A stretch of DNA of 64,000 bases from Bryopsis sp. KO-2023. Its lineage: Eukaryota > Chlorophyta > Ulvophyceae > Bryopsidales > Bryopsidaceae. The position numbers and the translations under genes were made by a program. Of the stretch, positions 60,683 to 64,000 are shown one piece after another. The notes under the pieces were generated by a model that saw only the letters and a program-made list of their open reading frames with translations, did no database searches and was not told the DNA's origin. Location: assembly GCA_030272585.1 (NCBI GenBank), contig BSYQ01000004.1, positions 5,270,001 to 5,334,000 on the forward strand, read 5' to 3'. Position 1 is the stretch's first letter, and each line of letters starts with the position of its first letter.

Positions 60683-61783
60683 CTTTCAGTCATAAAAAAA
60701 AACGTCGGAAGAAAACACAGTTTGGGACGTTCGTTTCTCTCTCTTTTTTTGGTCTCTTGAGCTCGTTGGGGCTCTTTTTAAAAAAATTCGTTTGAATCCT
60801 TGAAACGGCGTCGAGCAGGAATTTTTTTTTTACGCTCACGTTCCAAAGGGCAATAATATCCGTTGCCGCATTCGGAACGCGGTCCGGGTGCCGAAAAAAA
60901 AAGGCGTTTTGCGAACAAGAGCACCAACCCGCGGGCAAGATTCAATTGGGGGACATGGCGAAAAAATCGTACGACGAGGGCGTAGGCAGACGCAAGTTGC
61001 GTCCGCCTACGCCCTCGTCACGCAACGAAAACACCGTTCCAGCAAAGATATTTAAAGAAGAAAAAAAACAACCAAACTTCTCCCCATTTGCAAGTCTACA
61101 ATTAAGAAATTTCAGCGCCCACTGGCGAAAAAAAATATATTCCGAAGATATTCCGTTGGTGGAAGCCAACAAAACGTCTAGAACATTGGTTGCGATAGGG
61201 GCGAGTGGCCCCTCAGGCAATATGTAATTATCGTTGCTGTTGGTGGTGGTGGTGGTGGAAGCCAAGAAATTATTATTTCCCTCAAAGTTATTGCTTCATT
61301 GCTTCATTGTTATGAGGAAAATTGCACTTGGGAACAGCCACAGATCCGATGCATCACATTAGTGTTTGGTAAAAGACAAGAACACCAATCGGTCGTTCGT
61401 TGAGTGGGTGGATAAAAGGTTGTTTCCTTGATTATTTTTTTTTGCGCCCTTAGTTTCTCGCACTTCACCGAGCCCATTTCTTCCTTCTAGGGTGTCTCAA
61501 GAAGTGGAAACAGGACTCAAACCAACTATGAAAGAAGGAAAGCCTCCAAACAGCCGTTCAATCAGCAGCATTTCGGCTGCTCCCACAATCACGACCATAA
61601 ATCGCGATGAGACACCCGCCACCCCTTGTCTATTCCTTCGCCCAGAGCTTCTCGCACTGTTTCCTCTTGCCTCTGTTGGTGATCCATCAAACACCAACTG
61701 GCGGCGTGGTAGCAGCCTTCCAGATTCGCATGTTGGAAGAATAAAGCAATTTCTGCGAATAGTGCACTTCTTGTTTTGGCGGG
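60683..61783. other. Divergent spacer between TIC236 and sulfatase
   Basis: Should hold the TIC236 promoter. It contains the 47-nt near-palindrome at 60973-61019. Open frames at 60942-61265 (minus) and 61492-61830 (plus) have no recognised domain; the first consists partly of a Thr run and palindrome sequence. I do not call them. Confidence 0.4.
60973..61019. repeat. 47-nt near-perfect palindrome
   Basis: Arms 60973-60995 and 60997-61019 (GACGAGGGCGTAGGC... and its complement) differ at one position and are separated by a single base. This GC-rich cruciform sits about 290 bp upstream of the TIC236 start. Confidence 0.85.
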
Positions 61784-62155
61784 ATGGTCTTGGCTCCTTA
61801 CATCGCGGCGATCCTTGTGTTGATCGCTAGAGATGCGCAAGCAGTGGGCTCCGCCCCTGCGGACCGGCCGCCAAATTTTTTAGTTATGATGGCAGATGAT
61901 TTGGGATTCTCTGACCTGGGGATCCAGGGGAATCCCTACGTAGAAACTCCAAACATCGATGCACTAGCTTTGGAGTCTGTCAGTTTCTCCCAATTCTATG
62001 TCCATCCCGTGTGCGCACCCACAAGAGCTAGCTTGCTTACGGGGAGGGATTTCTTGCGAACAGGAGTGTGGGGTGTTCATGGCGGCCGAGATTTCATAAA
62101 CTTGGATGAAGAAACGTTCGGGGATGCACTCGGGGGGCACTATGGGAAATCGCGG
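61784..62155 (+). pseudogene. Sulfatase, N-terminal part; interrupted or truncated
   Basis: The ATG begins a signal peptide (MVLAPYIAAILVLIARDAQA). The sulfatase alkaline-phosphatase-like fold follows: PNFLVMMADDLGFSDLG with the metal-binding Asp pair, ETPNIDALA, and the signature CAPTRASLLTGR, whose Cys becomes formylglycine in active enzymes. After TFGDALGGHYGK the sequence enters the repeats at 62156-62768. A normal sulfatase needs about 300-400 more residues (KWH motif, C-terminal Asp/His sites) that I cannot find on the plus strand before the window ends. Either a large intron holds the repeats and the rest lies beyond the window, or the gene is broken here. The unspliced frame stays open through the repeats to 62740, which is probably a result of their GC-rich composition. 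Confidence 0.7.
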
Positions 62156-62180
62156 TCTGTGCGGGGTGTTTTGCAGACCC

Positions 62181-62552
62181 CGCACAGAACCTTGACCACC
62201 CATGCACAGGGCAAACAACACCCCGCACGGCTCTGTGCCCCGGTTTGGCCCCGTTTTTTGCGGGGTCCCGAATTAACCCCGCACAGACTGGTACCCCGCA
62301 CACAGAACCTGACGTCTTTCCCGTTGTGGGACCCCGTACAGATGAAACATAGCCCCGTACAGTGTGCGGGGCAGCCTATTCTCTGTACGGGGGTGCCGTG
62401 CGGGGTGGATATGAAAGACGTCAGGTTCTGTGTGCGGGGTACCAGTCTGTGCGGGGTTAATTCGGGACCCCGCAAAAAACGGGGCCAAACCGGGGCACAG
62501 AGCCGTGCGGGGTGTTGTTTGCCCTGTGCATGGGTGGTCAAGGTTCTGTGCG
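62181..62552. repeat. Perfect 140-bp inverted repeat with 92-bp loop
   Basis: 62181-62320 is the exact reverse complement of 62413-62552; the spacer is 62321-62412. The arms are GC-rich and contain several copies of GTGCGGGG/CCCCGCAC. The spacer holds its own shorter inverted pairs (CCCCGTACAG / CTGTACGGGG). No target duplication was found at the outer ends. Confidence 0.95.
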
Positions 62553-62608
62553 AATCATGGACCACCCCGCACAAGGGGGCCAGGACCTCGCACAGTTGTG
62601 CGGGGTCT

Positions 62609-62768
62609 CTGTGCGGGGTGAGTGTAAATAGCGTGTGCGGGCCCCTTCGATGTGTGTGCGGGGTGATTGTAAAAGGTTTGTGCCGGTGTTTTTGGGTCCT
62701 GTGCGGGGTGAGGGAAAATAGCGTGTGCGGGCTCCTTTGATGTGTGTGCGGGGTGATTGTAGAAACAC
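62609..62768 (+). repeat. 90-bp tandem repeat built on GTGCGGGG
   Basis: A unit starting CTGTGCGGGGTGAGTG at 62609 repeats at 62699 with a few changes (period 90). Each unit contains GTGTGCGGG and GTGTGCGGGGTGATTGTA. It directly follows the inverted repeat and shares its core motif. Confidence 0.85.
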
Positions 62769-62799
62769 ATGTGTGCAGGTTGAAGTCGACAATGTGGTG

Positions 62800-64000
62800 T
62801 TACAATGAAACAATAATGACAAACCCCCTTTGAATTGTAGACCTCATTTTATGATCGAAGACTTCCCATTCCCACTTATTCCAAAAAAGAAATAGAAACC
62901 AAAAAAATAGCCCAAAACCATGAACTCTGATCCTGCCATTCCGACCTTGTCTTTCAGTAATATAGAGCTCGTTGAACATAGAAATACTCAGCATCTGACC
63001 CACTTCCAACCGTCTTTCAATGTTTTTTTGAGCAAAGCAGAATAAGGCACATGAGGTGCAATTGTTCAAATGTTCATAATAACTGCAACATATGTTGTCA
63101 CATGCATATGAATCCGGGTTCACTGAGGTTGCGAAAGTCTTAATAAAGTCTGTTTCCTGAATCAAAACCAAATACAAAAAACGTTTTTTAAGAAAACAAT
63201 GTGCACGTCCGATACCAGAAACAAAACAAGCATGTTGCACCATAGTCGAAAAAAGGGGGGGCGGAAATCACCCTATCCAGCTGCCCTTTGCAATTGTTGT
63301 TACCTTTTTTTCATGGGGTGGGCAGGCTGCCCATTCTAACACACCTCCATCTTCCTTTCTCTGCTGGGATTAGTCTTTTTGATCCTCCGACCGAGCGGGC
63401 TGGCATTCTCGAATAATCTTCACTGTACCTCATCTTTACGGACAAAAGAATACATCCCCCCTCCCATAGACCCATGAGCTGATTAGCCCAGCCATCGAAT
63501 CCCTCACTGCCTGGCAGACAAAACCAGTTGTCAACCCCCCCCCCCAACCCAAAGGAAAGGCCTGCCCAATCAACAAGAACTAGGATCTGGTGTGTACTGT
63601 ATCATGCGAATTTTGTACATTTCCTGCGTCCAAGGGTTGGAATAAATCAATTATTTCAAGATAACTAAAAGCGACCTCAACATTTTTTCTTTTCTGCCTA
63701 TTTCCATTACTGCAAAAAAGGTTCCTGCTACATGAAATGCATCTTGCTGATGCACCCACAGCATAAATCCCTGTAACACATCAGGGCATTTTTTTTTGTT
63801 TTTCAACACACTTGATATTGTTTCCGGGACTGTCCATGTCGGCCCCATGGCAGAGATGTTGCTCATTCAATTTCCCACCTCCGACTTCCTCCTGAATATC
63901 GTTTCTCCACAGATTATACCTGGTCCACAATTTGGTGTTTTGCACTGGAAAAATCTCTGTCGTCCTCCTTCCTAAGCCTGCGAGAAAAATTACCAAAAAT
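62800..64000 (-). CDS. Exons of an unknown gene leaving the window (partial)
   Basis: Several minus-strand stretches look coding and sit after good acceptors. These are about 63977-63812 (GRRTTEIFPVQNTKLW...), 63510 to about 63325 (SEGFDGWANQLMGLWEGG...), and from 63156 downstream (ETDFIKTFATSVNPDSYACD..., with CC, C, C and C in a short span). Composition is protein-like, with Trp and Cys in places that look conserved. I could not connect all exons in phase, and an exon near 63780-63715 fits poorly. No family is recognised. The 3' end converges on the sulfatase repeats. Confidence 0.35.

Follow-up and report, generated by a model that had tools for sequence, protein, structure and literature searches.

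The perfect hairpin near the right-hand edge of the window (the whole 64,000-nucleotide stretch analysed here, with a GC content of 44.9%) very probably makes up the subterminal part of the left end of a cut-and-paste DNA transposon that has recently been active, and this reading best explains the locus as a whole. The transposon itself, its target duplication and the way in which its hairpin arms change together are all on firm ground. By its ends and its target duplication the family is CACTA, and by the transposase gene that one subfamily carries it is MULE. The features within the window are as follows.

61784..62137, + strand: sulfatase coding sequence, 5' part of an interrupted gene, from the ATG to the insertion point (PF00884 profile 1-87, E 3.5e-15)
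62135..62137, no strand: target duplication GGG, left side (flank comparison)
62138..64000, + strand: part of the transposon within the window (limits from copy comparison, ends, duplication and right-end pattern)
62138..62167, + strand: left terminal inverted repeat (TIR), 30 bp, 90% complementary to the right end, starting CACTATGGGAAA
62181..62320, + strand: hairpin arm 1, 140 nt (inverted-repeat search)
62321..62412, no strand: 92-nt loop of the hairpin, containing an imperfect inverted pair of its own
62413..62552, - strand: hairpin arm 2, 140 nt (inverted-repeat search)
62610..62761, + strand: subterminal tandem repeats on GTGCGGGG, 45-bp unit, 3.4 copies

A transposon inserted into a sulfatase gene

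The whole element is C4:5332138-5337289, 5,152 bp long; its right end, where the right-end pattern matches at C4:5337273-5337289, would be window position 67289, 3.3 kb past the window. It starts with CACTATGGGAAA and ends with TTTCCCATAGTG, the termini forming a 30-bp imperfect TIR, and the hairpin begins 43 bp inside the left end. The first-pass annotation had seen no target duplication and had judged the hairpin unlike a TIR transposon. Both judgements fall once the sequence past the window is considered: GGG flanks the element on both sides, the right side lying beyond the window, and the hairpin belongs to a TIR transposon whose other end is outside.

With the element and one GGG removed, the frame runs on as ...GDALGG followed at the junction by HGYSTGLFGKWW, and the predicted empty site, with one GGG kept, reads ...EETFGDALGGHGYSTGLFGKWW in a single frame. 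Beyond the element, frames of locus L101 take up the PF00884 profile at 215-300 (E 3.2e-15) and, in a second frame that scores under the curated cut-off, at 106-217 (E 1.8e-4). Because the empty site gives one frame and the profile continues past the element, we conclude that a sulfatase exon was split by the insertion; additionally, the left-flank frame contains CAPTR, which we take to be the sulfatase signature. The hairpin does lie inside a sulfatase gene, as had been proposed, but it does not start where the coding sequence fades, as the break falls at 62137/62138, 43 bp before the first arm.

Ends, target duplications and copies

In a comparison of 20 copies, 9.9 kb each, similarity sets in at window position 62138 (+/- 2 bases) in 19 of 19 other copies, and their left flanks are unrelated. 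The genome search that the first-pass annotation had called for gave 121 matches to the 613-bp hairpin stretch at many loci; six places, its own included, carry it at full length with 100% rounded identity, and a seventh carries 609 bases of it, again at 100% rounded identity. Three copies elsewhere are 99.94% identical to the window's copy over 5.0-5.07 kb, which points to recent movement of the family.

Pattern searches of the 91.1-Mb genome, which has a green-type rbcL, returned 71 exact right ends, together with 75 left ends when a single mismatch was tolerated: 29 of the 75 are exact and 46 carry one mismatch, two of the latter starting AACTA. When up to two mismatches were allowed, the left-end search gave 155 matches, right ends also being picked up, versus 3 for a reversed control. 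Nearest-end pairing yielded 65 candidate elements, some of them certainly wrong, and 10 left ends were without a partner. In the 26 of these 65 pairs whose flanks were compared, the 3-bp flanks are identical in 24, with 19 different triplets; if each pair had a 1/64 chance of matching, the probability of this outcome would be about 1e-41. At C7:5606620 the flank match is 4 bp, a run of T. One of the two misses is a wrong pairing, its right end being common to another element, and the other is C14:598080-604028, which is without a duplication. This last element (L013) is 99% identical to the window's element and has extra internal sequence and no matching 3-bp flanks; it may reflect a rearrangement or recombination between copies.

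Termini of the form CACTA...TAGTG and a 3-bp target duplication, the latter in 24 of 26 pairs, are both features of CACTA (EnSpm) transposons. PIF/Harbinger elements also make 3-bp duplications, at a TWA target; only one of the 24 duplications here fits that target (TTA at C5:5658058), and we do not place the family with them. Ten of the 24 duplication-flanked pairs span 13-25 kb. Since retrotransposon genes are present in L024, L025 and L027, within the stretch read, the size of the large copies is due at least partly to later nested insertions.

Captured and related sequence

The interior of the window's copy contains a 366-bp fragment (L009:8453-8818) in which 358 of 366 bases are identical to a dynein heavy-chain gene on C1 and which gives an AAA_8 domain match; judged by this alignment, the fragment is a captured piece of a host gene. 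In L097-L099 the two sides of the dynein piece lie within ~20 bp of each other, and in a copy on C6 near 690411 they are joined almost directly. Pack-type transposons are gene-capturing elements, and a host dynein fragment in a copy without a detected transposase resembles them; unlike them, the family here has only one capture traced to its source.

L097, L098 and L099 are among ~20 loci whose short repeats have part of the element's right half. These three, which were read, also share the right motif region and are without the dynein piece. None of the places of the ~20 loci appears among the 71 exact right ends found genome-wide. Short repeats of this kind are a related subfamily. Elsewhere, an open frame with F-box and WD40 domains (L014:372-1409) lies 4.1-5.2 kb from the left end at C2 3245127; that end could be paired with no right end whose flank matches, and the frame is either a captured or a neighbouring gene.

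The hairpin and the subterminal repeats

The hairpin is as first described, its arms being 100% complementary over 140 nt and 92 nt apart; of the inverted pairs attributed to the loop, one was found, 73% complementary. The tandem array next to the hairpin also exists, but its unit is 45 bp, and the 90 bp first claimed is two units: 66-nt copies are 92% alike at 90 bp apart and 68% alike at 45 bp apart. Folded as single-stranded DNA, the 372 nt of arms and loop reach -234 kcal/mol versus -71 +/- 4 in 100 shuffles, none as good, a score 40 standard deviations below the shuffles.

All 16 sites of GTGCGGGG or CCCCGCAC in the window (11 and 5, respectively) fall in 62159-62753. Counted over the whole element, the motif is present at 16 sites within the leftmost 620 bp and at 4 within the rightmost 290 bp, and it is absent from the element interior and from the 4.6 kb and 0.1 kb of flank searched; a 12.9-kb copy on C11 has the motif in its interior too. 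The arrays run in both orientations, as in CACTA transposons, and they are subterminal repeats with the CACTA layout. Across the arms of 36 distinct copies, variation is 1.6% in the 31 columns of the motif and 13.9% in the other 109, so constraint seems to act on the motif and to a lesser degree on the spacers.

In Spm/En, according to PMC2613891, CACTA subterminal repeats are bound by the protein TNPA. We infer a role for the hairpin in the transposon: most probably, an element-encoded protein would bind the TGTGCGGGG arrays and draw both ends together for excision and insertion, with the inverted layout putting TGTGCGGGG sites in both orientations.

The C11 copy is C11:3918906-3931802 (L092/L093; 12,897 bp), and an equally long candidate pair is C4:6555016-6567912. 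The right half of the C11 copy has an apparent multi-exon gene, with exons placed by eye. Its presumed introns contain TGTGCGGGG, sometimes paired at a distance of 21 bp; this gene may encode a second protein of the family.

Why the arms match

Of the 75 left ends, 60 were read (20 within the 9.9-kb loci and 40 short), and a recognisable hairpin is kept in 57, the second arm being missing in L046, L057 and L058. These 57 hairpins contain 36 distinct arm pairs, on which arm divergence was measured. Within a copy the arms differ by a mean of 7.9% (maximum 19.4%); between copies, arm 1 differs by 14.9% and arm 2 by 16.6%, and when arms were re-paired among copies in 1,000 trials, the mean was 16.4% and the minimum 14.1%. 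That divergence is smaller within copies than between them argues against an old duplication without exchange, which predicts the reverse order. Changes on both sides of a pair occur at 18 of 140 pairs, with 65 cells versus 25.6 +/- 3.4 in shuffles, in an ungapped set of 14 equal-length copies (12 distinct) whose relatedness inflates such counts; further pair types in the same set number 29, not above the shuffles (30.7). The homogenisation is uneven, strongest mid-arm and weak at both arm ends: against the expectation for unlinked arms, mismatch is 0.012 versus 0.247 at positions 61-80, 0.192 versus 0.248 at positions 1-20 and 0.101 versus 0.116 at positions 121-140.

What, then, keeps the arms alike; is it pairing in an RNA, recent origin of each hairpin, or copying between the arms? 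The hairpin might be kept as double-stranded RNA, as a source of small RNAs or a structural RNA, with the arm changes compensatory and under selection. A perfect, very stable 140-bp stem and paired changes on both sides suit such a role, and section 6 of PMC6446971 links long MULE TIRs to siRNAs. Selection for RNA pairing would, however, favour G-U, and among the arm mismatches G-U (90) is not commoner than A-C (109), nor is it as distinct column states (27 versus 43); the arms are therefore probably kept alike by DNA copying. Furthermore, a 30-nt loop tract in L018 has switched as a block: it matches its partner as an exact reverse complement at 30/30 bases, compared with 22/30 in L009, and looks like one conversion tract. 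We consider the RNA explanation quite improbable, and the selection that the first-pass annotation had listed among the causes of perfect arms finds no support as RNA pairing, whereas the recent copying and gene conversion that it also listed are both consistent with the data.

Each hairpin could instead have arisen afresh, perhaps through template switching when the element transposed, with arms alike because they are young. Perfect arms in 8 of the 20 copies compared would fit, but of the 57 copies with a measurable loop, 56 have one of 92 nt and the other has one of 91 nt, and the loop sequence is homologous in all 20 aligned copies, which speaks for one old hairpin repeatedly corrected and makes fresh origin very improbable. 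Large perfect palindromes are sometimes assembly errors, a concern that the first-pass annotation had raised; here, the same hairpin stands at many loci, with full-length copies at several places, unrelated flanks and duplications of their own, so an artefact is a nearly negligible prospect. A satellite seed, also suggested at first, is supported by nothing observed here.

We thus return to copying between arms. From the aligned sequences, DNA-level copying of one arm onto the other seems to have happened repeatedly. The route may be hairpin-templated repair or gene conversion acting occasionally from arm to arm, and a cruciform, replication, or repair after excision are candidate settings. 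Copying of one arm onto the other now and then would let the spacers of both arms change together and leave the motif unchanged. The family preserves, in nature, a record of how one arm of a short palindrome is copied onto the other, and its 36 distinct arm pairs make the position and rate of copied tracts measurable.

The hairpin of L027 (C4:3354235), with 15 arm mismatches, is a mosaic in which arm 1 is like one subfamily and outer arm 2 like another; it may have been caught between conversions.

Which transposase moves the family?

In the window's copy, 9 of the 19 listed frames were searched and no transposase domain was found, the Pfam matches being sulfatase and dynein, and the copy looks non-autonomous. 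A related copy, L022 (C8:4361278-4366175; 4,898 bp; duplication ttg), has the MULE transposase domain PF10551 in one open frame (E 1.7e-7, 32.1 bits, cut-off 27.6) and a SWIM zinc finger in another (E 5.3e-6). Two neighbouring frames, perhaps of the same MULE-SWIM gene, have no significant Pfam match; TNNLIES, spotted by eye in a frame of this sort, is presumably the MULE glutamate region.

Four of the 13 PF10551 matches in the genome are the MULE-SWIM gene; other MULE families of this genome lie around C7:5593711, C10:4672610 and C5:1869208. The gene's MULE exon is whole at four loci (C8, C12, C3 and C13) and partial at two (C14:2023737 and C6); three of these six have verified duplications (C8:4361278, C12:2322011 and C6:5233767) and the other three are inside or beside listed ends. 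A remote MULE match (35% identity, C14:1265017) is outside the family, and among 309 candidate protein relatives of the MULE exon none reached E <= 0.001. The SWIM exon was located at 12 loci, all inside or beside listed family ends, and is split at one of them: eight of the loci belong to elements with verified duplications, and the four on C5, C14, C3 and C13 adjoin listed ends or lie inside them. At six of the 12 no MULE exon was detected, as expected of internal-deletion derivatives. A whole-genome search for the tnp2-type domain PF02992 gave two matches at a single locus (C12:548569-549374) and none in any listed family copy, where divergence or short exons could hide one.

The Mutator-type features are thus divided: the MULE transposase domain is found in one subfamily, and target duplications are 3 bp in 24 of 26 pairs, not 8-11 bp. 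For the MULE groups with a stated duplication, Table 1 of PMC6446971 gives 8-11 bp; many groups there have none stated, and the entry for the diatom group reads 'No TSD and not indicated'. In our literature search, that table included, no MULE was seen to have CACTA ends or to make a 3-bp duplication, a weak negative as most subscription literature lay outside the search.

We propose that the MULE-SWIM protein of one subfamily might move the whole family. The fuller picture, of a lineage in which a MULE-SWIM protein works on CACTA ends, generates 3-bp duplications, so bridging two superfamilies, and keeps a subterminal hairpin under continual arm-to-arm conversion in its transposition or repair cycle, is one that we advance tentatively, at slightly short of an even chance. 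The MULE gene may itself have been captured by a CACTA element. The element would then be an ordinary CACTA (EnSpm) transposon, its tnp2-type transposase divergent or encoded elsewhere and the MULE-SWIM gene a passenger, an explanation that we regard as less likely than not. In its favour, the soybean element Tgmt* is reported in PMC2613891 to have the same combination of CACTA ends, 3-bp duplication and asymmetric subterminal motif arrays; gene capture occurs in this very family; the MULE-bearing copies are near-identical, and their association with MULE may therefore go back to one event; and PF02992 is present at one genome locus. Neither of its two matches, however, is inside a listed copy, and the 3.8 kb searched at that locus contain neither GTGCGGGG nor CACTATGGG. 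The MULE-SWIM gene, for its part, has a catalytic-domain exon, the TNNLIES frame and a SWIM exon and sits in a 4.9-kb element, and half of the SWIM loci resemble internal-deletion derivatives. A MULE nested within a CACTA element was rejected: no inverted repeat of at least 14 nt brackets the MULE exon in L022:6300-9600 (shorter TIRs would be missed), the longest there being the right-end motif hairpin.

Relation to known elements

Tgmt*, as PMC2613891 describes it, is a close parallel among CACTA elements, with CACTA termini, a 3-bp duplication, a short TIR, large size, insertion in a gene, and asymmetric subterminal repeats of one motif, direct and inverted, able to form stem-loops. Those stem-loops are many and short, whereas the element here has one perfect 140-nt subterminal hairpin. 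Unlike CACTA (EnSpm) elements, the listed copies have no detected tnp2-type transposase, and one subfamily has the MULE-SWIM gene. According to PMC6446971, MULEs are alike in their catalytic domain, SWIM zinc finger and acquisition of host gene fragments, and the TIR length here is within the stated 14-500 bp; the differences are the 3-bp rather than 8-11 bp duplication, the CACTA ends and the long inverted repeat inside one end. End sequence and duplication length serve in the classification of transposons, since both are thought to follow the transposase. If a MULE-type enzyme does go with CACTA ends and 3-bp duplications, these traits can be reshuffled among transposons.

The foldback elements Tm1 (PMC3169594) and Tetris (PMC4079207), in the text excerpted from both, likewise have inverted repeats with internal sub-repeats, and homogenisation has been suggested for the Tetris repeats. 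There, however, the TIRs form the foldback and duplications are 8-10 bp, while here the hairpin is within the left end. Conversion of a subterminal hairpin did not turn up in our literature search, which took in the same excerpts and left most subscription literature uncovered, so its silence is weak evidence. A free-standing foldback was rejected, as the termini match over 30 bp and the long inverted repeat is inside the left end; the foldback element first suggested survives in form only, the hairpin being a subterminal inverted repeat inside one end and not a TIR pair.

A second, smaller palindrome is present in the window at 60973-61019: it is 47 nt long and near-perfect, with two 23-nt arms, 96% complementary and 1 nt apart, the 15 outermost nucleotides of its arm have no second occurrence in the genome, and it sits 1.1 kb upstream of the transposon.
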